The notes below the pieces were generated by a model that was not told the origin of the DNA, searched no databases, and worked only from the letters and a program-made list of their open reading frames with translations. The position numbers and the translations under genes are program-made. Shown here in pieces: positions 31,635 to 49,308 of a stretch of 49,308 nt of DNA (positions within the stretch are counted from its first letter, which is position 1; each line of letters starts with the position of its first letter). Origin of the DNA: Rhodoligotrophos appendicifer (GTDB lineage: Bacteria > Pseudomonadota > Alphaproteobacteria > Rhizobiales > Im1). The stretch is from NCBI RefSeq assembly GCF_007474605.1, contig NZ_VHKL01000019.1, positions 1-49,308 on the forward strand, in the 5' to 3' direction.

Positions 31635-32601
31635 ATGGACGCCTTGCTTCCAATGCCGAGGGATTCTGGTGCAGAGATCTCGCCATTCGAGACCGCCGAC
31701 GAGCCCACTCAGCACTACAGGGCTCGTGAGAAGGCGGAGAACACCCTTCGTAGCTATCGCAGCGACGCAAGGGTGTTCGATGCCTGGTGCTCTGCTCGTT
31801 CCGTGGCCAGTCTTCCCGCGACACCAGAGAAGGTGGCAGCCTTCCTTGCCTCGCAAGCTGACGCGGGCCTATCCGCTTCAACAATTGACCGCCGCGCCGC
31901 GGCTATCCGGTTTGCCCACAAACGTATTGGCCACCTCAACCCCGTCGATGCAGAAATTGTCCGATCGACCATGCGTGGAATTCATCGTGTCATCGGAACG
32001 GCGAAGGTCGGGAAGGCACCGGCGACCAGCGATGTTGTTGCAGCGATGCTCAATGTCTGCGGCAGCGACATTCGTGGTGTTCGCAATCGAGCACTGCTTC
32101 TCACCGGTTTCGCCGCTGCATTGAGGCGCAGCGAGTTAGTGGCGATCGATGTCGAGCATCTCACGGAGATGGCTGAGGGCTACCGCATTCTCATTCCGCG
32201 ATCCAAAGGCGACCAAGAGGGAAAAAGGCGTCGAAGTGGCGATCCCACAAGGATCATTACTGAAGCCTGCTGCAGCGTTGAAGAACTGGTTGCTGCTCGC
32301 CGGCATCAAAGAAGGGCCGGTATTCCGCCCAGTAGCCAAAGGCGGGCTTGTAGCCGCCGAGCGACTAACTGACCGCAGTGTCGCGTTAGTGATCAAAGAG
32401 CTCGTGAAGAAGGCTGGCTTTGACCCAGCTTTGTTTGCAGGACATTCGCTGCGGGCCGGATTTGTCACCGCAGCTCTACAAGCTGGCGCCGACCTGTTTG
32501 CCGTAATGGCTGTCAGCAGGCACGTAGATGCGCGAACACTCAAGACCTATGATCGCCGGAACAAAATGTTTCGGGATCATGCCGGAAATGGCTTTTTATA
32601 A
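31635..32601 (+). pseudogene. Tyrosine recombinase (site-specific integrase), one-base frameshift in an A-run
   Basis: Read as two frames, 31635-32230 and then 32226-32601, this gives a complete recombinase of about 321 residues: a SAM-like core-binding domain (about 25-110, NTLRSYRSDARVFDAWCSAR), and a catalytic domain with Arg in RRSELVAID, Lys in PRSKGD, HSLRAGF with His and Arg, a second His in SRHVDART and Tyr in KTYDRR. Removing one A from the AAAAA run at about 32222-32226 rejoins the frames. Either the gene is dead, the run is a sequencing error, or it is read by slippage. Its 3' end recurs twice downstream as isolated copies (see 35093 and 37293). Confidence 0.85.
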
Positions 32602-32706
32602 TCAATCACGGTATCAATTGGCCGTTGTGATCTTCCGTGATGAAGTTGGTTCTCAGAGTCAAAAGCAATCCCTTTAGCTAAAGCCTCTTTGCACTGGGGG
32701 GGAGCC

Positions 32707-35046
32707 ATGAGTGATATTGGTGATTTTGACTGGCCCAGGCGGCCAATGATGTCTCCACTTGGAGGATTCTTGATCCAGAGTAGAGGCGGTCAAACAGGAG
32801 ATTTCGAAGTCGTTATTCCTTGGCCAGGTGGTGGATTAGCACACTTCTTCCGGGACAATGACAATAATGGCGCATGGAACGGTCCCGGCTTATTCGGCAC
32901 AGGAACGTACACTGGTGCGACCCTTATTGAATCAGATTTTCGGCTTGATCCAGAAAAGCGCCTGGGAAGTTGGGAGGTACTGGCGTCAAGAGCAGACGGT
33001 GTGGTTGAAGCTTATTGGCGGGATAACCTCAATTATCTGTGGCATGGTCCGTCACCCATCGTCTCAAGATCAGGTCAAGCATTTGCCGGGGTAGGTGGAG
33101 TGCCTAGCATGGCCTATTCCGGAGCATTCTTTAGGGCTTCGGGTACTGGCCACAACTTCAGCAACTTCCTTGTGGTGGCCCCAGATCTCTTCGGAGGTTT
33201 TAAATACTGGCAACGCGCAAATCAGAGTTTTCCCGACGGCAGTGATAACATTTTTTGGGGCGATCTTGGCGGTGCCGGTTCTCGCAAACTCGTAGGTGTG
33301 GGCATTATTTCGCCGTCGATGGGAAGCACCCATCACGGAGATATATCGGATACTGGTTACGCAGACGTCGGACCAGGTCTAGAACGAATCGTTGCAGGAG
33401 TGACGGCAGGTGGCCAACTCGAGCTCCATGTCAGATGGATCACCGATGCCTCTGGTCTCCACGTCGACTGGATTGATCAAACGACGCTAGGAGAGGATGT
33501 TTATCCTGAACTCGATGGCGAGTTCTGGGGACGCCCTTGTCTGGTTCAAGGTGACAACGGTTGGGAGCCTGAAGGTGATCTCCCATTTGATATTGGCCAT
33601 TTTGGTGATCTGGAGTTAGTGGCTCCGAGCAAGAACGGCGGCATTCTTTATATGAGCCGCGATTGCGGCAATAGGCAGGATGGCTTTCTTTCAATTGGCG
33701 AGGCTAGCCGCTGGCGCCCTCCACTGAGAATACCTGGCCCATTCTATGACGAAGTGTCGCTCATACAGAGCAACTTCGGAGGCGAGAACGGTAATTTAGA
33801 GCTGATCGCGCGGCGTAGCCATCAGCGAGGTTTTGACTTTTATTACAGAGATGAGAATCGAACTTGGCATGGGCCGCAACGTATTGGCGAGCATTTAATC
33901 ATAGACCGGCCGTGGGAGCACCGTCGCTTTAATGTAGCCGGCGATCCTGTGGGTGTCGGTGCCGAAATGCGTCTAGGCGCAAAGTTGGTAAGTTGGGTTG
34001 ATACAGTAAACAGGATAGAGCACATCGCTTGGAATGACGAGGGGCTTTCAGCCCTGCGCCGCCGTTTGGGCAGCCGGATCTGGTCCAGAGAAACCCCTCA
34101 ATTCGCACCGGCAGAGCGTTATACGGGCTTGTCGGGTTGGTTTGTTCCACAGGAAAACTCCGACTACATTGCCTACCATGGCCCAACCACTCTAGGTGAT
34201 CAACTCTACGTCTGCAGAAAGCCTGCAGACTCAACTACTTGGGAGTTAGTCGCCACTTTGGGCAGTGAGGTTACTCAATCGTCCCTGTATTGGCGGACCG
34301 GCCCCATTGGCTGGATCGATTACGGGACCGTCGTCCATATCGTTTACGCGAGTAAAGGTGGAAAGATCCACGAATGGTTTCGGAGGGCAGGTACAAACGA
34401 GCCATGGCAACATAGCGACGTGAATCTCCAAAATCACATGAAGATTTTAGACGGCACCATCCCCTCTCTATGGGTCAGCCATAGTAAGGAATTATCCAGT
34501 TTAGTCTACTTTGGTGCCGACGGCCGGCTCCACCACAGCGATCATAGAGTGGTGGCTGCGTCGCCCCGCTGGGACCATCGATTGGTCGAACCACATATAT
34601 CATTAGAGGGGTCACAGCCGTCTGGCGACGTTGTGACAAGTTGGGGGTCAACGGTTGGAACTGAAGTTCAGCATTTTGCCTACGCCCTGACGAACGAGGT
34701 CCATCAAAGGTACTACTTTCGAGGTGGCTATGGGGGATGGCGCCACGAGGTTTGTACTCCCGGGCAAGCCGCGCCCAGAAGTGCCGTAACTAGCTGGTAC
34801 ACCTCGCCTGAACACACCCAGCACATTGCTTATGTAGGTGACGATCGTCAGGTCCACGAGACTTATTTCAATGTTGCTGTGGATGGCGACGACGTATGGC
34901 ATCACACCGTTCCATCAACCGGCTACCGACCGACGTCAGACGGACTTCCGCCGATGACAAGCTGGGTCACACCAGATAACGTGGAACACATAGTTTATCT
35001 GGGCGACGACAGCCGGCTTTATGAACTGCTCAGAGAACCGGCGTAG
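32707..35046 (+). CDS. Large protein of two tandem beta-propeller-like domains, lectin-like; function unknown
   Basis: A 779-residue protein with no signal peptide or membrane segment. The N-terminal half (about 1-410) has at least five or six irregular repeats with a core like GDFEVVIPWPGGGLAHFFRD or GNLELIARRSHQRGFDFYYR, the Asp/Gly-Asn-x-Glu-hydrophobic-x, aromatic, Arg-Asp pattern of lectin-like propellers. The C-terminal half (about 424-779) holds seven repeats with the pattern S-W...H-I-x-Y-x-G-x-D...H/L-x-E, for example VTSWYTSPEHTQHIAYVGDD and MTSWVTPDNVEHIVYLGDD; seven repeats fit one propeller. Such domains bind sugars or proteins. A GGGGGGAG box fixes the ATG. The gene is AT-richer than its surroundings and lies between two recombinase 3' ends, so it is mobile cargo. 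Confidence 0.75.
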   Translation: MSDIGDFDWPRRPMMSPLGGFLIQSRGGQTGDFEVVIPWPGGGLAHFFRDNDNNGAWNGPGLFGTGTYTGATLIESDFRLDPEKRLGSWEVLASRADGVVEAYWRDNLNYLWHGPSPIVSRSGQAFAGVGGVPSMAYSGAFFRASGTGHNFSNFLVVAPDLFGGFKYWQRANQSFPDGSDNIFWGDLGGAGSRKLVGVGIISPSMGSTHHGDISDTGYADVGPGLERIVAGVTAGGQLELHVRWITDASGLHVDWIDQTTLGEDVYPELDGEFWGRPCLVQGDNGWEPEGDLPFDIGHFGDLELVAPSKNGGILYMSRDCGNRQDGFLSIGEASRWRPPLRIPGPFYDEVSLIQSNFGGENGNLELIARRSHQRGFDFYYRDENRTWHGPQRIGEHLIIDRPWEHRRFNVAGDPVGVGAEMRLGAKLVSWVDTVNRIEHIAWNDEGLSALRRRLGSRIWSRETPQFAPAERYTGLSGWFVPQENSDYIAYHGPTTLGDQLYVCRKPADSTTWELVATLGSEVTQSSLYWRTGPIGWIDYGTVVHIVYASKGGKIHEWFRRAGTNEPWQHSDVNLQNHMKILDGTIPSLWVSHSKELSSLVYFGADGRLHHSDHRVVAASPRWDHRLVEPHISLEGSQPSGDVVTSWGSTVGTEVQHFAYALTNEVHQRYYFRGGYGGWRHEVCTPGQAAPRSAVTSWYTSPEHTQHIAYVGDDRQVHETYFNVAVDGDDVWHHTVPSTGYRPTSDGLPPMTSWVTPDNVEHIVYLGDDSRLYELLREPA

Positions 35047-35092
35047 CGCATTGAAGCAAAGCGGTTAAGCGCAACGTCTCTCAATCATGCCC

Positions 35093-35218
35093 CTTCAGGC
35101 AGGAGCGGACCTGTTCGCAGTCATGGCTGTCAGCCGGCATGCGGATGCCCGGACGCTGAAGACCTATGATCGTCGAAGCAAGATGTTCCGCGACCATGCG
35201 GGCAACGCATTTCTCTAG
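35093..35218 (+). repeat. Isolated 3' end of a tyrosine recombinase gene (copy B)
   Basis: 42 codons, from a CTT at 35093 to TAG at 35216-35218, match the last 42 codons of the recombinase ending at 32601. They encode LQAGADLFAVMAVSRHADAR and TLKTYDRRSKMFRDHAGNAF-Leu, with the catalytic His and Tyr intact: 38 of 41 residues agree, but by my hand count only 95 of 126 bases do, with most changes synonymous. It is therefore a piece of a different, related recombinase gene and not a recent duplicate. No start codon or 5' part exists; the DNA before 35093 is unrelated. Confidence 0.85.
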
Positions 35219-35479
35219 AGTGAGTGGGATTGCCGCTTTCTGGTCTCTAAATTTCAGAGGGCTGACCTACCGCCAGCGCTTTCAAAGTGATCCGCTATGA
35301 AGATCAACGGTCAGTGGAGCACAATCTGGATTTCTGAAACTAGACTACTCCACCCCGTTCCGCGTCGTGCTACCCTTGAGATCCCGTCGAAGGAAGATCC
35401 GCACATTAAATGGGTCGCGTGCCTGTGACGGTGGACGCACACTGACACCGACTGAGAATGAATCCCTCCAGCCCGTCCT

Positions 35480-36883
35480 TCATCCCTCACGCTCTAACGC
35501 GCTAATCTCCGCTTCTTCGCGAAGAGCTTCCGGTGCCACAGCTTCTGCCGACGCCTTTTCGTCACTGAGCTTTGGTGCGGGGGCCTGCCACGCCCTAAGA
35601 TGTTGCCCAATCTGGTTGTAGAAATCTGGTACAAGCTTTTCGAGGTCCGAAATGAAGTTCTTCCGTTGTGAGAAACGAGAGCCAAGATCTTTCACCAAAA
35701 GAACTTCAAAGGTATGAGGAGCCTGGTCCCCTCTGTCCTTTGACACAATCTCCGAGTTTTCTTTAAGAGCCTTCAGTGAATGCTGAGTGCTCATGGTTCT
35801 TCCCGGCGACCCGAAGCGAACATGTATTCCTTCAGGTTCTGCTTTTGCCAGTTGACGAAGAAGCCAGCTCGTTCGCCCCTTAGCACTCTTTTTCTCAATT
35901 GGGGCCCTCAGCTTCATGGAAACCGAGATCGACTTCTTCGCCAGATCAGCGATGAGCTCTATTGGAGAAGCGGCTGAAGGGACATCAAAAACGGCCTCAA
36001 GTCGTTTAGACAAAGCAAGAACTTCCAAATCGGCCTTTTGCCGAGCTGCCGGATCATCTTTCAAACTACGGGGTACCCGCAGGTCCACTTCAACACCAAG
36101 CTGCCTGCTCAAAATGAGACTTAGGTTACGAATTTCCTGGTGCCATGCTCCTACGACTTCGCGAGCCTCTGACGAAGTTGTTGGAATAGATGCTCCAGCA
36201 TTTATCTGAGAAAGAATTTCAGTCCAGGCCAAAGGCATCTGCTCAAAACTCTTAACACCTGAGCTTTGATGAAGAAGAAATCTCTTCATTTCCTGCAAAA
36301 TGATTCTTTGATCTCTGTCAATAACTTCATCATTACTAAGAAGAAGGTCTGCCATGGTGATGACATACATCCATGACCAATGGTACAGATCTACTTTCTT
36401 TCGAAGTGAGCTTGGAACATTTACTGGGTGGTGAGACGGAAGCGGAGCAAACTGATTTGAGAGGGTAATGAGCGCGTTAACACCGTTGAGTCGAGCAAGC
36501 TCGGCATAGCTGGAGACTTGCTCAACCGTGAGATCAGTGTTGCCGACTTTAGCCTCAACAAGTGCCGTCCACCGGCTGGATCCCGCAGTGATCAGTATGA
36601 GGCCATCTGGGCGCATAGCCTTATCGCCACCGCTCTTTGAAAGTCCCACCTCAGTAAACGTTTCAATTTTCGATCGAGTGCCAACACGTTTGCCGAGGTC
36701 GGCAAGCATGCTACGGCCAAATTCATCAACATTTTGTAGGCATGACAGAAAAATAGAGAGCGTCCGCCCCTCTTTAGAAGTGTCTGCTAAAACAGGGAAA
36801 AGGCGAGCGCGCTCGCCGCGCGCGAGCACTGAAGGAAGTTCAGTCATTGTGGCGTCCCCAGCATCTTTGTTATTGTTCAGCAT
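35480..36883 (-). CDS. Hypothetical protein with a PD-(D/E)xK nuclease-like core; defence candidate
   Basis: A 467-residue protein that I do not recognise by name. RPDGLILITAGSSRWTALVE followed by AKVG places Asp93, Glu110 and Lys112 in the order of a PD-(D/E)xK site, with a possible helix Glu at 74 or 78; VEQVSSYAELARLNGVNALI continues like the helix after such a site. The remaining 300 residues are mainly helical and include RDQRIILQEMKRFLLHQSS. No signal peptide. An internal ATG at 36847 (MTELPSV) is an alternative start. The base composition is clearly AT-richer than the flanks. It lies between recombinase 3' ends B and C, facing left, as cargo. Confidence 0.7.
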   Translation of the reverse strand: MLNNNKDAGDATMTELPSVLARGERARLFPVLADTSKEGRTLSIFLSCLQNVDEFGRSMLADLGKRVGTRSKIETFTEVGLSKSGGDKAMRPDGLILITAGSSRWTALVEAKVGNTDLTVEQVSSYAELARLNGVNALITLSNQFAPLPSHHPVNVPSSLRKKVDLYHWSWMYVITMADLLLSNDEVIDRDQRIILQEMKRFLLHQSSGVKSFEQMPLAWTEILSQINAGASIPTTSSEAREVVGAWHQEIRNLSLILSRQLGVEVDLRVPRSLKDDPAARQKADLEVLALSKRLEAVFDVPSAASPIELIADLAKKSISVSMKLRAPIEKKSAKGRTSWLLRQLAKAEPEGIHVRFGSPGRTMSTQHSLKALKENSEIVSKDRGDQAPHTFEVLLVKDLGSRFSQRKNFISDLEKLVPDFYNQIGQHLRAWQAPAPKLSDEKASAEAVAPEALREEAEISALEREG

Positions 36884-37292
36884 CTTCTACCCCAGATTAC
36901 CGGTCAAGATGCTTTCGTAGATTCGATTGATATTATTGTTTCTTGGTGGAGGTGTAGCTTTCGGAATGTTGAAATGTCCCTTTTGTTTGTTATTGGCATT
37001 CTGCCTGCGCATGCCGCGCTCGCTTCGATTTGCCGATGTGTCCATAATGACAAGTTCGCCGCGGTGGCAACCTGTAATCCGACGGATCGAGAATGAGCAG
37101 ATTTGCTTTTGTCATGGACGGCGTTGATCTAAGGCCGCACCCTCGCCCGTTCCTTTGAGACGTGGGAGACTGGCAGTCTTCCCAATGCGTGCTGGCACAG
37201 TTGCTGTAAGCGTAGCAATTGTAGCGGTATATCAGGACCCGATGCCCGCATTCTGGCACTAGAAAGGGCTGGGCCAATCCTTAACGGCCTTT
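36884..37292. other. Non-coding stretch between the nuclease-like gene and recombinase fragment C
   Basis: No credible gene in 409 bases; the short open frames lack ribosome sites and sensible composition. The part near 36884-36960 is AT-rich and probably holds the promoter of the leftward nuclease-like gene. The remainder may be debris of the element that left fragment C. Confidence 0.45.
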
Positions 37293-37365
37293 GCGCTCGC
37301 ACACTCAGGTACATGACCGTCGGGGCAAAACGTTCCGAGATCACGCGGGCAACGCGCTTCTGTAA
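37293..37365 (+). repeat. Degraded 3' end of a tyrosine recombinase gene (copy C)
   Basis: From about 37293 to TAA at 37363-37365 the sequence follows copy B closely, with the shared run CGCGGGCAACGC. In frame with the stop it reads HDRRGKTFRDHAGNALL, equal to YDRRSKMFRDHAGNAFL of copy B, so the catalytic Tyr codon (TAT) has become His (CAT). One base is missing near 37308 and nothing recognisable precedes ARTL. It is a third, dead recombinase terminus and marks the right side of the nuclease-like module. Confidence 0.75.
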
Positions 37366-37837: not shown

Positions 37838-40800
37838 TCATTCTGAAACTTTGGATCCGTCAATCCTGTTGGCCGCAATCGCCGCTAGGAAACGACTTCG
37901 AGTTGTCGGGTGAAGTTTGCTTAGGGAGAAGAGACCCGTCATTCTTCTAACGACCTCCTCCTCGTCGCCCCCTTCCTGCAAAAAAGCCGCTGCAAGAGAG
38001 GCGAGCTCGCAGATCGGGATGTCGGCGTGGCTTCGGACGTTAGCGTCCGACATGCGGAATGGAACAACATGGGGTGTGACTGGGCCGGCAAGCCAAACCA
38101 CCCGGCGCTCATTCTCCGTTCGACTCTCTAGCATTGAGCCCAAAGCACTCCGGATCGTCTGACGGATGGTAACCCCAGTTCCAAGGAACCCATGTGCCTT
38201 GGCAATTTTTTGAAAGAGGATGTCTTCATAGAGAGGGGCTTCGACAGTCAATATCTGGGCTGCCATCGCCCGAATCTTAGGCCGATACGCAGCATCATAA
38301 AAAACATTGGGATTAGGAGAAATCCCGTCCGCAAGCAGGTCCGCCTCTACATAGGGCGGAAAGTCTGGACGTTTGAGCTCGCGTAGGACACGCCGCTTGC
38401 TATCAGCAAAACCAACGCTTCTGGCATGCAGGTCGGCTCGGATCACCCCACCTTCAGCCTCGGAAAACAACAAGGACGCTTCAAACCTTGGATTCGAGGA
38501 CGAGGCGATGACATCTTCCACGGTATTGGGTGGCGCGTCGGTTCCCTCGGCGTCGACTGGCGGCTCAACAGCACCCGTCTCAGCGAACATCGGCGGCAAT
38601 GCTTCCACTTCGCGAGCCGCTCGCTTCTTCCGAGCCTCCTCAAGATCTGTTATCAATTGGCCGTGCAGTCGGTGCAGGGCCTTAGTGGCATCCATCCACC
38701 AGTCGGTGCTCCAGACGCGCCGAATGCGCCAACCGAGGCCAATCAGCACTTGTTCGCGCAAACGGTCCCTGTCCCTAGCTGTGGCCGATCGGTGATAGGT
38801 TGCCCCATCGCATTCAACGCCCGCGAGATAGCGCCCGGGTGCATCGGGATCAACGATGCCCAGATCGATCCGGAAGGCTGAAACGCCGACCTGCGGATGA
38901 ACCTGCCAGCCCAGTGACTCGAGCTCGGACTTCACAGCAATCTCAAAGTCCGAATCAGGGTCTAGGCCGGTTGGTGAGAAGGCTTCTGCGATGGCTTTGG
39001 GCCCATGTTCAGCAAACTCGAGGAAATGCTTGAAATCCAACACGCCCCGCGCCCGCGTCCGCGAAAGGTCGATCTGCTCCGGCCGCAGAGTGGCGAAAAT
39101 CACCATCTCCTGACGCGCCCGAGTGATGGCGACATTTAGGCGCCGATGCCCTCCCTCCTTGTTCAATGAGCTGATCGTGCTCGTCACACGCCCTGCCTGG
39201 TCGGGGCCGACTGCGATCGAAAAGAAAATGATGTCCCGTTCGTCGCCTTGCACATTCTCCAGATTTTTGACGAATACGGGCTCATGCCATTGGGCCGCGT
39301 CGAAGAACAGCTCGATGTCTGGGAGGCTGCGCCGCTCCTGCTCGAGCAGATCTTCGATAAGTTTCTGCTGCGCCGCATTGAAGGTGACAACACCAAGTGA
39401 CAATTTGGCGAGCACAAATCCCGGATCTTTCAGGCGGCGCACGATCTCCGCGACGACCGCTCCAGCTTCCTTGCGATTGACGCGCCCCGCCCCGCGCTCA
39501 TACACCCCACCCGGGACATGCACGTAACGCACGGCGACGTCGTCCGTGACTGGCGAAGGGAAGGTTACCAACTTGCCATTGTAATAAGTGTGATTGGAGA
39601 ATGCGATCAGGCTCTCGTGTCGGCTCCTGTAGTGCCAGTTGAGATCGCGTGCAGTGATGTTTGACGCCAACGCCTCGTCGAGAATGCTTTCCTGGTCCTC
39701 GATCTCGCTATCGTCTTGGTCATCCACCCCGCGCTCTCCGACATTGGTCGGTGGCAGTTGTTGGGGATCGCCGACAATGATCGACTGTCGCCCTCGTGCC
39801 AAGGCGCCGATAGCATCCCATACCGGAATTTGCGACGCCTCGTCGAAGATCACGACGTCGAAGGGTTGGCTGTCCGGTGGCAGGTATTGCGCGATCGACA
39901 GAGGGCTCATCATTACGCAAGGCGTGAGCCGAGTGAGGGTGGTTGGCATCTTCGCGAAGAGTTGCCGCAGAGGTTGATGCCTTGTCTTCTTGGCCAGCTC
40001 GCGCGCAAGAAACCCCCATTCCTCGTTGTTGCCGAATGCGTTCGGCCCCGGGATGTTGCCCACCAGCCTCGATCGAACAATCCTCTTGGATAGCTCCCGC
40101 ACTTGCTCATCGGCTGCCTGAAATGCGGCAATCGTATCTTCTTGGCGTGTCGCCAAAAATGAACAGAGGCGTGGATCCCCTGAGATGACGGTGTCGGCCC
40201 ACCAGCGGGCGTGTGCAATCTCGAATGCTTGATCGATCTCATGCGGCGCAATGCTGCCTTCGTCGAGAGCCGCCAGAACGCCCTGCAGGCCGACGGCTTC
40301 CGCCTCACGACGCGCACTCGTCCACTGGCACCAGACATTTGCCTGGCCGAGGCTACCTTGCCAACCTTTGAGCAGGCTAGCAGTATCTTCCATCCAATTT
40401 TCATCAGTAAAGAAAGCGTTGACAGCCTCGTGGCCTGCAAGCCGTAACAGAGTCTTGTTGGCAGTATCGAACTCCCGCCACGCCCGTTGAAGCCCTTCGA
40501 AACCTGCCAGAGCCTCGCTTCGTGACCGAAACATATGTGCGTAATCACGGCGCAGGCTGATGACATGCTCCCGCAGGTCGGACTCGTCGATCTTAAGCGC
40601 CGGTGCGGCCGAGCGGATAGAGAGGCGCATGCGATTCGCCCATTCATTGCCGGCAGCCAAACTTGAAAGCCTGGTGTCGAGACCCTCCCAAGCGTCTCCG
40701 AGTGCGGACAGGACCGGAGCCAGATCTTCGACATTGGCTTCAATATCCGCCAGCTCGATCAGGATCACGAGATCGGTGGATATGTCTTTTGGAAGTGGGG

Positions 40801-43800
40801 ACACCGCAAAAGGCTCGAGCTCCAAAAGAACCTTCCTTTGGCGGGAGCCCCTCAAGACGATGTTGGACTGGCTCGCCTCAGTCCAGTCATCGAGAATGCG
40901 GCCTAGATCCCTGCTGAAGACTGAGCTCCGATACTCCGCCGAAAGGGACTTTCGGAGCTTGCTTGCAGACTTCTGAAGCCTCGTCAGTTCGCCAATCGCA
41001 TCTTTGATGGCGGCTGATCGGTCGGTGAGAAAGAGGTGGCCGTCGTGGCCGGCGGCGCCGATCAACATGGCACCAAAAGCGACCAGGTGCTGGAGGCCGG
41101 ACAAAGACAGAATATGGGGCAGCCCAACATACTGGCAAAACGCCTGGGCGGACTCGCGCAGGGCGCTCATCGAGTTGAGCGCCTCATCAATTGCATTCGT
41201 CATCTCCTGTCGCCATTTCGGGCTCCAAGCAGTAATGGCAAGCCCCTGCAATGGATGAGCGTTTACGTCGCCGAGCGCGCGAAGAACGGTTTTAAGCTCG
41301 CGGCAGACCTTTTGCATTGCCGAGAGTTGATCCCGGTCGATCTCCATGGGCGGCCACTGCAGGTCGACCTGCCTGAAGGCGTCGCGTGCACGAATGACCT
41401 TGCTCATGGCATCATGGGCAGAAAGCCCATTGCTTCGGCGACGATGCAGACTGGAGACCAGGCCATTGAGATCATCCCGCAATGCCGCCAGAATGTGCGT
41501 AGCGCCTTCCCATTCCTCGACTGACACGGCGCTGCGCTCGTGCCACGCCTGGCGCAGCTGACCGAGGACAGCAGATTTTTGGGCTTTAGTGGAATGAACT
41601 TCTAAGCAATACTCGCCAAGCCCAATGTCCTTCAAGCGGCGCTGGACGACTTCCAACGCTGCGGTCTTCTGAGCGACGAACAGCACCGTCTTGCCTGACG
41701 CAAGGCATTGCGAGATCATGTTGGCGATCGTCTGGCTCTTGCCGGTTCCAGGAGGGCCGAACAAAACGAAATCATTTCCCGCCGCAGCTGCCATGACGGC
41801 CGCAAGCTGGGATGAATCCGACGACAGAGGCGTCAGGATGTCGGCTGGATGGTAGGTGCGGTCGAGGGCTGCAGGATCAGGAAAATCGGTTCCGTCACCG
41901 TATTGCTGCTTCGGCGTATCGATGAGGTGGCGGACGATTGCGCTTCGCTTGAGCGTCTCCATCCGCTCTACAAGGTCCTTCCACATGAGAAACTTTGTGA
42001 AGGAGAAGGTCGACAGGATGACATCCGACGTCACCTCCCAGCCTTTCAGGTCCCGAACATGGGCACGCATAATGCGCCAAACCTTCTCCACATCGATCCC
42101 GCTCTCATCAGTTGGAAGCCCTTGTTCGAGCTCCGGGATCGCCAACTTAAAATCCTGGCGGAGTAGCTGCAGCAGCGTCGGATTAAATCTTGCTTCTTCC
42201 TCATGGAGCTTCAGGCGAAACCCAGCGCGGACATTCTTGCGCGCAAGTGCAACAGGGATAAGTAGCAAGGGCGCGCGGAGTGTCGGACCACTCGGCTTCT
42301 GGGTCCATTTGAGGAAGCCCATAGCGAGGAAGAGGATATTTGATCCACCCTCCTCAAACGCGGTGTTCGTCGCCCTGAACAGGTCCGTCAGGCGCGAGGC
42401 GAGCTCTGTTTCGCCACAGAAGGTGTGCAGATCCTGCTTCGCCAACGCCTCCACCAGATAGCGTTGGCGCCCATCGTCATGATGTCTCTCGCGGTAAAGG
42501 GCAGCGTCCCTTTGATCCCCCTCCCCGAGCACGTCGGTGCGAGCGTGCAGCTTGAATTCCATCCCCCTCGCCAAGTGGTCCTCGAGGGCGCCGGGATCCG
42601 GGCACTCGATCGGAATGCACTTCTTGGCATCCTTGAAGTTCAGAAGCTTGTTGCGAAGGGAGAGATCGAGCAGCTTTCGCTTCCATCGCTCCAACCGGTC
42701 GATCGGCAAATCGGTGGCTTCGGCGACTGACATGTTCTCTGCAAACTGTGGCGGTTCCTCTATTTCCTGTGGCGGTGCCGACTGAGATTGCGTCAATATC
42801 GATCCGCCAGCGGGTTGCTCCGCAAGCTCGAGAGGCTTTATCCCTCGGCAGCGGGAACGTTTGACATCGACCGCGATCTCGAGCGTCTCGCCATTCTCAT
42901 CAACGTGAGCGGATCCTGCTTTGATGGCGGCACTGAATGTGGCAGCAGGCCTACGCGTCAGAAGCGTCGTCTCGACGAAAATCAGGTCCTGCGCATCGCG
43001 GCGCTTGCGAAGGACTTGCATGTCATCCACGGCGACCGTGGAAAAATCTTCAGCGTTCAACCAAAGGCCGACGAATGCGTGGCCCTTTGTCAGAACCAGC
43101 AATCCGTTCAATCCGGCCTGTTCTAGACAGGCGGCATAGAGCAGCGTGAGGTCGAGGCAAGTGCCTGTCTTGCGTTCAATAATTACACCCGGGGATCTGA
43201 CCTTCTGCCCCGAACGTTCAAAGCTTGCCGGCGGCAGCACATAAGTTAGGCCACAATCGGCGATCGCCGCCCAGATGGCGTTCGCCAGCTCCCAGGTCCG
43301 CTCTCGCTTCCTCGCCTGATAACCATCGATTGCAGAGTTTTTTCCGGCAGACGCTAGCTTGATCGACGCATTGTGCAGAATCGTATCGATCACCGGCTCG
43401 TTCGGCCTCACGAAGGCCGCGAGAAGCTCGGGTGCCGCACCCGACCCGCCCCAGTGAGATGGCGGATGAAGCTGGAGCTCGATCGTGTTCTCGAGCAGGA
43501 CGGTTCCTCGCTGCTCAAGGACAAGAGAGAGCGTGCCTCTCATCCCTTCATTTAAACGGCGGAGGTATCCCGCTTCGAGCGTGAGATCCACAGGCGCGAT
43601 GTGCCGCGTCGAGCCTGCGGCGACCTGATCGATGTTGATCGACAGAGAGGCCGCAAACGCAGGCTCGCTGCGGAGGTTCAGAACCAAATCGTCTAGGCTA
43701 CGATCCGACAGGTTCTCGACTGTCAATTCGTAGATAACTGGAATCGAGTTCTGATAGAATGCGATGCTGAGGTAATCTGAAACAGTCCACCCGAGCTTGA

Positions 43801-43816
43801 CTGTTTCTCCCAACAT
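37838..43816 (-). CDS. DUF4011-type superfamily 1 helicase with transglutaminase-like, Vsr-like nuclease and DUF3320 domains
   Basis: A 1992-residue protein, intact. Order of parts: an N-terminal beta-rich region (about 1-130); a transglutaminase-like fold (about 190-260: ERKTGTCLDLTLLYAACLEQ, KGHAFVGLWL); DUF4011 (from about 375: ERWKRKLLDLSLRNKLLNF); the helicase core with Walker A FGPPGTGKSQTIANM (about 685) and Walker B VVIFDEASQIPVWDAI (about 1315), the C-terminal helicase motifs (ERDIIFFSIAVGP, LNVAITRARQEMVIF); a Vsr/MTES_1575-like endonuclease (about 1620-1715: GVECDGATYHRSATARDRDR); and DUF3320 (about 1840-1890: APLYEDILFQKIAKAHG). Related single-gene helicase-nuclease proteins provide phage defence. 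It fills the stretch between recombinase fragment C and the tRNA-Arg fragment and has near-background base composition. Confidence 0.88.
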   Translation of the reverse strand: MLGETVKLGWTVSDYLSIAFYQNSIPVIYELTVENLSDRSLDDLVLNLRSEPAFAASLSINIDQVAAGSTRHIAPVDLTLEAGYLRRLNEGMRGTLSLVLEQRGTVLLENTIELQLHPPSHWGGSGAAPELLAAFVRPNEPVIDTILHNASIKLASAGKNSAIDGYQARKRERTWELANAIWAAIADCGLTYVLPPASFERSGQKVRSPGVIIERKTGTCLDLTLLYAACLEQAGLNGLLVLTKGHAFVGLWLNAEDFSTVAVDDMQVLRKRRDAQDLIFVETTLLTRRPAATFSAAIKAGSAHVDENGETLEIAVDVKRSRCRGIKPLELAEQPAGGSILTQSQSAPPQEIEEPPQFAENMSVAEATDLPIDRLERWKRKLLDLSLRNKLLNFKDAKKCIPIECPDPGALEDHLARGMEFKLHARTDVLGEGDQRDAALYRERHHDDGRQRYLVEALAKQDLHTFCGETELASRLTDLFRATNTAFEEGGSNILFLAMGFLKWTQKPSGPTLRAPLLLIPVALARKNVRAGFRLKLHEEEARFNPTLLQLLRQDFKLAIPELEQGLPTDESGIDVEKVWRIMRAHVRDLKGWEVTSDVILSTFSFTKFLMWKDLVERMETLKRSAIVRHLIDTPKQQYGDGTDFPDPAALDRTYHPADILTPLSSDSSQLAAVMAAAAGNDFVLFGPPGTGKSQTIANMISQCLASGKTVLFVAQKTAALEVVQRRLKDIGLGEYCLEVHSTKAQKSAVLGQLRQAWHERSAVSVEEWEGATHILAALRDDLNGLVSSLHRRRSNGLSAHDAMSKVIRARDAFRQVDLQWPPMEIDRDQLSAMQKVCRELKTVLRALGDVNAHPLQGLAITAWSPKWRQEMTNAIDEALNSMSALRESAQAFCQYVGLPHILSLSGLQHLVAFGAMLIGAAGHDGHLFLTDRSAAIKDAIGELTRLQKSASKLRKSLSAEYRSSVFSRDLGRILDDWTEASQSNIVLRGSRQRKVLLELEPFAVSPLPKDISTDLVILIELADIEANVEDLAPVLSALGDAWEGLDTRLSSLAAGNEWANRMRLSIRSAAPALKIDESDLREHVISLRRDYAHMFRSRSEALAGFEGLQRAWREFDTANKTLLRLAGHEAVNAFFTDENWMEDTASLLKGWQGSLGQANVWCQWTSARREAEAVGLQGVLAALDEGSIAPHEIDQAFEIAHARWWADTVISGDPRLCSFLATRQEDTIAAFQAADEQVRELSKRIVRSRLVGNIPGPNAFGNNEEWGFLARELAKKTRHQPLRQLFAKMPTTLTRLTPCVMMSPLSIAQYLPPDSQPFDVVIFDEASQIPVWDAIGALARGRQSIIVGDPQQLPPTNVGERGVDDQDDSEIEDQESILDEALASNITARDLNWHYRSRHESLIAFSNHTYYNGKLVTFPSPVTDDVAVRYVHVPGGVYERGAGRVNRKEAGAVVAEIVRRLKDPGFVLAKLSLGVVTFNAAQQKLIEDLLEQERRSLPDIELFFDAAQWHEPVFVKNLENVQGDERDIIFFSIAVGPDQAGRVTSTISSLNKEGGHRRLNVAITRARQEMVIFATLRPEQIDLSRTRARGVLDFKHFLEFAEHGPKAIAEAFSPTGLDPDSDFEIAVKSELESLGWQVHPQVGVSAFRIDLGIVDPDAPGRYLAGVECDGATYHRSATARDRDRLREQVLIGLGWRIRRVWSTDWWMDATKALHRLHGQLITDLEEARKKRAAREVEALPPMFAETGAVEPPVDAEGTDAPPNTVEDVIASSSNPRFEASLLFSEAEGGVIRADLHARSVGFADSKRRVLRELKRPDFPPYVEADLLADGISPNPNVFYDAAYRPKIRAMAAQILTVEAPLYEDILFQKIAKAHGFLGTGVTIRQTIRSALGSMLESRTENERRVVWLAGPVTPHVVPFRMSDANVRSHADIPICELASLAAAFLQEGGDEEEVVRRMTGLFSLSKLHPTTRSRFLAAIAANRIDGSKVSE

Positions 43817-44130
43817 TTCTGCCCCCTAAATTTTCGGCAGGCTATCGGTTGTCCGAATAGTTGTCGATATATGTCCTCGGCAGAACGGCCAGCGATTAGA
43901 GGATATTTGTGAAAAGTTTCTGGGGACCGCCTCCCGCGTCGCGGAGGTATTTGAGCGAGCGAAAGCGCTCACTTCGTTGACACACACCATTCCCAACTAC
44001 GTGCCCACGCATAAACTCTAAAACTTATGTGGAGGAGCTTTTGCTGCGGCTGTGACCTATTTGTGACCTCCGGTCGAAGTGATGCGGCCCAGGAGCATCC
44101 CAAAAAGGAGCTAAGTCACTGATTTTAAAG
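43817..44130. other. Leader region of the helicase gene up to the tRNA fragment
   Basis: These 314 bases contain no gene. Two small stem-loops are seen at 43930-43947 (CCTCC...GGAGG) and 43953-43970 (GAGCG...CGCTC around a GAAA loop). The AT-rich part around 43850-43915 probably carries the helicase promoter. The lower end runs into the tRNA fragment. Confidence 0.45.
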
Positions 44131-44182
44131 TGGCGCGCCGGGGAAGATTCGAACTCCTGACCCCCAGATTCGTAGTCTGAAT
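44131..44182 (-). tRNA. tRNA-Arg(ACG) 3' fragment, attachment-site repeat
   Basis: On the minus strand, from 44182 to 44131, the sequence gives an anticodon arm with a loop holding ACG, a variable segment, a T-arm with TTCGAAT and an acceptor 3' strand ending in encoded CCA. The 5' half (acceptor 5' strand and D-arm) is absent; the DNA above 44183 is unrelated. The T-stem has a mismatch. This is the typical core left when an island integrates in the 3' end of a tRNA gene. The arm-domain integrase gene starts 155 bases away. Confidence 0.78.
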
Positions 44183-44337: not shown

Positions 44338-45576
44338 ATGAAGCTGAGCAAGAGAAGCATTGACGGGTTGGCACCCCGTGCAACTCGATATTTCGTTTGG
44401 GATAAGTCGTTGGTTGGCTTCGGCGTAAGGGTCGAAGCCTCGGGCCGAGTAACGTTCATCTGTCGGTATCAAGCCGGCACCGTTCGGCGCCAGTACACGC
44501 TAGGCCGCTATGGTACTCTTACGCCTGAGCAGGCGAGAGAAGAAGCAAGGCGTGTTCTCGGATCGGCCGTCCTCGGAAAGGATCCAGGCAAGGTCCGTCA
44601 CGAGGCAAGAGGTTCTCCAACCGTCGCGGATCTGATTGGTGCGTATCTCCTAGGCCATGGACCGAAGCTCAAGCCCTCAACCCGCACGGATTATGAGAGC
44701 GGCCTGACGAAGCATGTCCTCCCGACGCTAGGCAGCCTGAAGGCCGAGGGAGTTACCGCCATGGAACTCAACAAGCTTCATCTCAAGCTAAGTGATCGAC
44801 CATATCGGGCAAACCGCGTCCTCGCCTACCTCGGCAGTGTGTATGGCTGGGGTGCAAAGCATGGATTCGTTCCTAAGAACTTCAATCCTGTTGCTGACAT
44901 TGAGCGCTTCCGGGAGCAAGGACGGGAGCGGTTCCTCACTTCAGAAGAACTCGGACGCCTTGGCGCCGTACTGCGACAAGCCGAAACAGAGGGCCTGCCG
45001 TGGTCCATCAACGTGACGGGTCCAAAAAGTAAACATCTCGCCAAGGTGGATAACCGGAACATCGTCTACCCCGCCCACACAATTGCCGCCATCCGGCTGC
45101 TCATCGTTACGGGTTGCCGCCTTCGCGAGATCCTAAACCTGCGCTGGGATGAGGTGGATTTCGGGCGTGGGCTGCTGTTCCTGGCAGATTCTAAGACGGG
45201 GCGAAAGCCTGTGATCCTGAACGGTGCTGCCATTGAGATATTGAAGGGCCTGGATCGAGTTGGCGATTATGTCGTTGCCGGTCAGGATCCGAGAAAGCCG
45301 AGGCGCGATCTCAAGCGTCCCTGGGATCACATCCGCGAGGCTGCCAACCTGAACGATGTTCGGCTTCACGATCTTCGTCATACACACGCCAGCATAGGAG
45401 CAAGCGCCGGCTTCGGGCTGCAGATCGTGGGTAAGTTGCTGGGACACTCTTCACCCCTCACCACTCAGCGCTATGCTCATCTCGCCGATGACCCGGTCCG
45501 CCGTGCGTCGGAGGCAATCGGCCGCCATCTCACTGAAGTCATGGCACCCGTTCCCGACGCGTTGAAAGAAAGGTGA
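44338..45576 (+). CDS. Site-specific tyrosine integrase with N-terminal arm domain (DUF4102)
   Basis: A 412-residue phage/island integrase. Residues 1-90 form the arm-binding domain (KLSKRSIDGLAPRATRYFVW, DKSLVGFGVRV, RYQAGTVRRQYTLGRYG). A core-binding domain follows (about 100-200), then the catalytic domain with Arg in GCRLREILNLRW, Lys in ADSKTGRKP, HDLRHTHAS, GHSSPLTT and Tyr in RYAHLADDP, all present. This group integrates next to tRNA genes, in agreement with the tRNA-Arg fragment 155 bases before it. It appears functional. It probably belongs to the island that continues to the right. Confidence 0.93.
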   Translation: MKLSKRSIDGLAPRATRYFVWDKSLVGFGVRVEASGRVTFICRYQAGTVRRQYTLGRYGTLTPEQAREEARRVLGSAVLGKDPGKVRHEARGSPTVADLIGAYLLGHGPKLKPSTRTDYESGLTKHVLPTLGSLKAEGVTAMELNKLHLKLSDRPYRANRVLAYLGSVYGWGAKHGFVPKNFNPVADIERFREQGRERFLTSEELGRLGAVLRQAETEGLPWSINVTGPKSKHLAKVDNRNIVYPAHTIAAIRLLIVTGCRLREILNLRWDEVDFGRGLLFLADSKTGRKPVILNGAAIEILKGLDRVGDYVVAGQDPRKPRRDLKRPWDHIREAANLNDVRLHDLRHTHASIGASAGFGLQIVGKLLGHSSPLTTQRYAHLADDPVRRASEAIGRHLTEVMAPVPDALKER

Positions 45577-49223: not shown

Positions 49224-49308
49224 TGTGCAGGGCGGTGACAAATTAGGCCATGGAGCGCCGACGTGATGGCGGTGCGGGCGGAGTAAAAGCCGTCCATTGG
49301 CTAGGCTG

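Follow-up and report, generated by a model that had tools for sequence, protein, structure and literature searches.

Why do loose copies of the last ~40 codons of an integrase gene stand among cargo genes? The question is raised by a 49,308-nucleotide (nt) stretch of the 5.59-Mb genome of Rhodoligotrophos appendicifer (contig NZ_VHKL01000019.1, positions 1 to 49,308 of the forward strand), hereafter the window, in which a tyrosine recombinase gene of a family that we call INT is followed by two further copies of its 3′ end. These copies suggest that the integrase's own gene is the point of DNA entry. We consider it somewhat probable (roughly 0.57) that the INT gene contains an exchange site, that incoming DNA brings a replacement tail, and that the displaced tail is found as an orphan past the cargo.

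Three INT 3′ ends and two cargo genes in the window

The order of features in the window is INT A, cargo 1, tail B, cargo 2 and tail C. INT A (31635-32601, + strand), described in an earlier note on this DNA as a tyrosine recombinase gene ending at 32601, carries a frameshift that the note had not noticed: it consists of two overlapping open reading frames (ORFs; 31635-32372 and 32149-32601), the frame shifting between ~32200 and ~32290. The features of a tyrosine recombinase are present on the two ORFs separately, the SAM-like N domain on the first (Pfam Phage_int_SAM_1, 1.4e-8) and the catalytic domain on the second (Phage_integrase, 4.6e-8), and a hidden Markov model (HMM) of INT covers them at model positions 9-220 and 191-324, respectively. 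The 3′ end of INT A, tail A (32476-32601, + strand; direct repeat D1), recurs as tail B (35093-35218, + strand), an orphan that reads open to its stop codon and matches the last 41 positions of the INT HMM (E=1e-13). The A/B repeat, starting at 32476 and 35093, spans 125 nt at 76% nucleotide identity, and the proteins are 93% identical over 41 residues, values that fit the earlier proposal that B derives from a separate, related INT and not from a recent copy of A.

Tail C (37303-37365, + strand) is a decayed orphan 3′ end recognized by repeat comparison, tblastn and a terminus HMM. It is 79% identical to B over the last 52 nt, with a tblastn match to residues 23-41 (E=6e-5) and a terminus HMM match at 37303-37362 (E=4e-4, single-genome search). 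The earlier note had described a damaged 3′ end at 37293-37365; the damaged end stands, while its start at 37293 is uncertain, clear homology running from ~37303-37313 onward. At E<=0.01 the terminus HMM matched five places in this genome: the three tails A, B and C, and two sites within frames that are 359 and 324 codons long. The repeat, tblastn and HMM matches together bear out a lone tail B and a decayed tail C with cargo between, and the INT HMM detected no INT body in the window besides that of A. Because INT A is frameshifted and C decayed, the window copy is a relic; judged by its frameshift, INT A is probably inactive now.

Orphan tails recur in Methylobacterium and begin at a preferred position

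A survey of 34 genomes and records revealed several short-frame termini in Methylobacterium sp. J-070 (G779). The INT terminus is present at E<=0.001 in 74 of 111 Methylobacterium genomes, many of the matches listed lying in short open frames. We took the short-open-frame places among the matches listed, together with 14 whole INTs. On the short-frame loci the INT HMM identified 60 3′ fragments, 10 of them with another INT-HMM match close upstream; of the remaining 50, 26 have their start 33-48 codons ahead of the stop codon. With uniform starts over 26-135 codons, ~7 would be expected (binomial p ~6e-10, or 2e-4 if the unit of counting is the 15 contexts into which they fall), p-values that serve as a guide only, since the choice of short frames favours short fragments. 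Upstream DNA, present in 25 of the 26 orphans, falls into 15 contexts, and downstream DNA, present in all 26, into 21, with both common to 4 pairs. The search for the lone terminus that had been suggested thus yielded recurrent tails with varied DNA on both sides. Near whole INTs, extra tails were detected by HMM at 3 of 17 loci, all downstream and on the same strand.

INT homology in the orphans sets in abruptly, on average between codons -37 and -34. Profiled over 27 of 29 tails, agreement with the INT consensus climbs from 0.26 (codon -43) to 0.96 (codon -34). The profile leaves out L215 and L223 (no upstream DNA) and takes in L198 and L229 (INT body close by); the sharpness of this onset is independent of the p-values for the start distribution. 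One record captures the break itself: in pMaq22A_2p an INT body ending in AERSADL is followed by an 81-bp insert that begins and ends with CTTAG and then by a tail beginning ARIMDQSGHRD, the body and tail parting at the same point as the orphan onset. A second case, G801, is weak: its body ends in AERGADL at that point, after which 22 nt remain before the contig end, and these do not resemble INT. As far as comparison of loci can tell, body-less tails recur, their onset is preferred, and one clear body/tail break falls there; junctions thus appear to cluster inside the INT coding sequence in Methylobacterium, and tail B fits this pattern.

In the window, A and B have GACCTGTT in common at the codons corresponding to that point, and the homology of B begins 5 codons earlier. 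The candidate exchange core in A, at codons -36 to -34, is an 8-nt segment identical to B (32491-32498, + strand) and matches both the orphan onset and the pMaq22A_2p break; the candidate core in B is at 35108-35115 (+ strand). The earlier idea of serial insertion with the integrase gene as junction gains from the recurrence, the varied flanks and the preferred onset; the preferred junction, however, is placed ~105 nt before the stop and not at the 3′ end of the gene.

Codon positions indicate how the orphans arose. Between an orphan and its nearest whole INT, third positions hold 9.69 of 14.9 differences, and first and second positions hold 2.97 and 2.24, compared with 1.70 and 0.80 between whole INTs. 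The first- and second-position counts of the orphans remain raised, at 2.75 and 1.83, among the 24 of 29 with intact frames, a set without L229 (the tail of an INT with a short deletion) and without four orphans whose frames or ends are shifted. By this measure the orphans are descendants of working tails on which constraint was then relaxed, which explains why B keeps 38 of 41 residues but 95 of 126 bases. Some orphans contain stops or frameshifts; these, and the excess of first- and second-position changes, disfavour the orphans as small proteins.

Tails and neighbouring DNA are exchanged between loci

Orphan L191 and whole INT L210 have tail and downstream DNA in common (1507 bp, 82%) under differing upstream DNA, and the same holds for L218 with L214 and for L223 and L225 with L204. 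One segment is found ahead of a tail at two loci (L134, L233) and behind a tail at L132. Module K starts no more than ~20 nt past the stop of INT, of orphan tails or of an X-type recombinase (XerC-like, about 300 aa). In these alignments, then, a tail and its downstream DNA occur under differing upstream DNA, and similar modules occur beside differing tails.

Whole INTs carry a related signal. The bodies of L213 and L214 are 91% identical and their last 60 nt 75%, and the downstream DNA is unrelated. For 30 INTs, successive segments were correlated with body distance at 0.52 (positions -240 to -165), 0.40-0.45 (-165 to -90) and 0.15 (final 60 nt). At -165 to -90 the variation is smaller (0.16-0.18 vs 0.21) and the correlation nonetheless higher; segments before -240 aligned poorly and were left uninterpreted.

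Two further recombinase remnants were observed. At L222:5736-5945, ~50 nt ahead of an INT orphan, stands an orphan 70-codon 3′ end of an X-type recombinase (94%), so a second recombinase family may do likewise. On a Microvirga ossetica plasmid (L138:9585-9958), an INT with an internal deletion has 36 N-terminal residues joined to its last 90.

The INT gene as a putative entry point for DNA

The arrangement would be produced as follows. A recombination site would lie within the INT coding sequence at about codons -36 to -34, some 105 nt ahead of the stop; codon -17, which judged by its motif presumably encodes the catalytic tyrosine, is farther downstream. Entering DNA would supply its own last ~35-40 codons, completing the INT gene with the cargo behind, and the old tail would be pushed to the far side of the cargo as an orphan. 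Repeated rounds would give the order seen in the window, with INT followed by two successive units of cargo and tail. We infer that this exchange is site-specific, that cargo moves as circles and that the core is as placed above. INT itself would catalyse the exchange, acting in trans for recombinase-free cargo, because the site lies in INT's own gene and there are arrays with no other recombinase between INT and tail; none was found there in the window, L203 (a plasmid of Methylobacterium sp. WL1), L207, L210 or G342.

A further step, which we put forward tentatively, is a cassette system in which the INT 3′ coding end is the cassette site. The tail on each cassette would include the presumed nucleophile, so that the enzyme would be turned on by the first cassette of the row alone and turned off by a tail-less insert, as in pMaq22A_2p. 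If exchange takes place as proposed, bacteria would gather cargo in an integron-like manner, every capture would rebuild the enzyme, and a recombination site would be preserved as protein rather than as DNA. This would also account for variable downstream DNA and for the scattered 3′ ends of one integrase family. Self-targeting, called exclusively archaeal in a review (PMC8371274), would reach bacteria, with phage Mx8 as the known bacterial forerunner. The arrangement is directly testable in Methylobacterium.

Several observations weigh against an exchange site inside INT. Starts are not uniform in their preference: 24 of the 50 fragments begin elsewhere, 22 at 49-135 codons and 2 below 33 (one of the 24, in L234, start 118, belongs to another recombinase subfamily), and there is a second loose group with starts 55-67 codons before the stop (L142, L175, L176, L177, L182, L193, L197, L200, L223, L228 and L229). 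A DNA-conserved core was not found, synonymous variation in the whole tail being no lower than upstream, and six strands of A, B and one orphan gave no clear attC-like folding (z +0.2 to -1.9; the lowest, the top strand of A, was matched by 6 of 200 shuffles). The last 60 nt of L210 and L174 are 95% alike although unrelated DNA follows them, and this pair requires an additional junction at the stop. Several orphans adjoin recombinases of X type or of Y type (340-384 aa), and no INT body was found in the stretch examined there, so another enzyme could be responsible.

Results from wider searches also count on this side. An extra tail was present at only 1 of 52 INT loci (L047-L086 and L095-L106, each searched with its own terminus; several are copies of one element, and in L072 and L104 the frame end used was not the true tail), and none was seen in the stretch examined at the other 51; weaker matches (E 0.002 to 0.5) were treated as chance. 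The exception is the 28-kb replicon G342, where a decayed extra tail 2.7 kb downstream ends at a stop codon and scores 80, against <=27 in 12 shuffles. The terminus as query found 4 loci in genome contigs and 32 in viral contigs, each a single tail on a longer frame. At E<=1e-5 it occurs in at least 16 of 397 genomes of the order, and among the matches listed B alone lies in a frame of <100 codons. The broader conjecture of the earlier note, serial cargo capture with the integrase gene as its own attachment site, is partly supported: the preferred in-gene junction speaks for it, the frameshift in INT A and the 51 of 52 loci without an orphan against it.

No empty site or filled/empty pair for the window was found in two congeners and one other family member (G001, G002 and G003), the comparison that had been proposed as a check. 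The terminus was not found in these genomes at the thresholds used, and because the window flanks match them only in fragments, an empty site is unreadable. Among 36 phage records the best places were all at <60% identity and none covered 80%, and a search for a filled/empty plasmid pair for L235 returned only its own record at >=80% coverage.

We weighed three other explanations. The INT gene could be a mere target, into which other elements with X-type or Y-type recombinases insert carrying a substitute 3′ end, in the manner of many islands at tRNA genes. X-type genes do stand before an orphan on the same strand in L134, L135, L195, L218, L219, L231, L232, L234 and pCMU02, as do Y-type genes in L188, L191, L223 and L227 (in L184 on the other strand), but these loci have no INT body in the stretch examined, and the five INT-tail arrays named above have no X- or Y-type match between INT and tail. 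We regard this explanation as unlikely. Slightly less likely still is that plasmids are shuffled by homologous or illegitimate recombination of the ordinary kind, with INT a plasmid recombinase, its conserved 3′ part a widely shared hot spot and the orphans decaying breakpoints. ParA near INT on three plasmids (pD of FF17, Microvirga and pAU20g), the mosaic modules beside tails and the lost coding constraint in orphans would suit it, but homology would spread breakpoints across the conserved catalytic part, and an onset confined to a few codons with a break at the same point is unexpected. Random decay of tandem whole INT genes could leave a coding-like B and a decayed C beside a frameshifted INT, but it is very improbable, as the window holds no second INT body, each gap holds different cargo and onsets elsewhere cluster. 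The outcomes named beforehand as contrary were likewise not seen: we found no random tandem decay with constant cargo, and a preferred junction exists.

Comparison with known systems

The nearest likeness to the proposed exchange site is in Myxococcus phage Mx8, where attP lies within the integrase coding sequence and integration yields a new 3′ end (PMC6070905, PMC4383910). As is proposed for INT, the site is in the integrase's own coding sequence and the gene gets a new 3′ end; Mx8, however, is a single phage using chromosomal attB sites, and the portions of these sources available to us describe no integrase-tail arrays. In the archaeal suicidal integrases (SSV, pTN3, pT26-2) the site is also inside the integrase gene, and the gene is split (PMC8371274). 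The INT tail, by contrast, seems to be replaced, so that the gene can stay whole, and the host is bacterial.

Integrons have one integrase and a row of cargo units, each with a short site copy. INT arrays would likewise have one integrase, a cargo row and site copies, but their presumed sites are integrase 3′ ends with no clear attC-like fold. For two whole Methylobacterium INTs the integron-integrase model NF011946 was not among the NCBIfam matches at E<=0.001, and the second ORF of INT A scored 19 bits against it (cut-off 435). Integron membership fails on the two features tested, an IntI-type integrase and attC folding.

At tRNA-gene islands an incoming copy restores the target, a displaced fragment marks the far end and tandems occur (PMC4383910); cis-mobilizable elements (CIMEs) offer the same likeness of restored target and far-end fragment. 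In INT arrays, the integrase gene itself would be the target. The window shows repeated INT 3′ ends (A, B and C), but A is frameshifted and no empty site was found in the genomes named above. The pdif modules of Acinetobacter plasmids resemble the arrays in that short recombination sites bound shuffling plasmid cargo. pdif sites are 28-bp XerC/D sites; they differ in not being coding DNA of the recombinase. Nothing in the titles and abstracts found in a partial literature collection portrays integrase tails as the borders of cassettes, and we know of no such account. Tail-bounded cargo arrays in bacteria appear to be a new form.

Cargo genes and neighbouring features

Cargo 1, between A and B, is a 785-aa ORF (32689-35046, + strand) with relatives of 26-40% identity on 3 plasmids. 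Cargo 2, between B and C, is a 467-aa ORF (35480-36883, - strand) whose relatives on Streptomyces and Rhodococcus plasmids are mostly annotated as TerD family protein. Together, the plasmid relatives of the two genes come from Rhodococcus, Streptomyces and Paenibacillus, and the window cargo is present in both orientations. The names "lectin-like" and "nuclease-like" given earlier to cargo 1 and cargo 2 describe appearance only; at E<=0.001, searches of Pfam, NCBIfam and PADLOC matched neither.

The next long gene past C encodes a ProA-type anti-phage protein of 1992 aa (37838-43816, - strand; NCBIfam NF058533, 2101 bits against a cut-off of 1500; PADLOC PDC-S37), which may be cargo or a neighbour. 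It is followed by a 3′ fragment of tRNA-Arg(acg) at 44127-44179, with matches in all 4 genomes searched and an intact tRNA in L118-L120, and then by a second integrase with an Arm-DNA-bind_3 domain (44338-45576); the fragment and this integrase are probably the end of a separate island. The last 85 nt of the window (49224-49308) have 10 further copies in the genome, some at contig starts, and probably represent a repeat at which the assembly broke. The segment 29477-29692 matches elsewhere in the genome at 88% and is possibly the remnant of a repeat.

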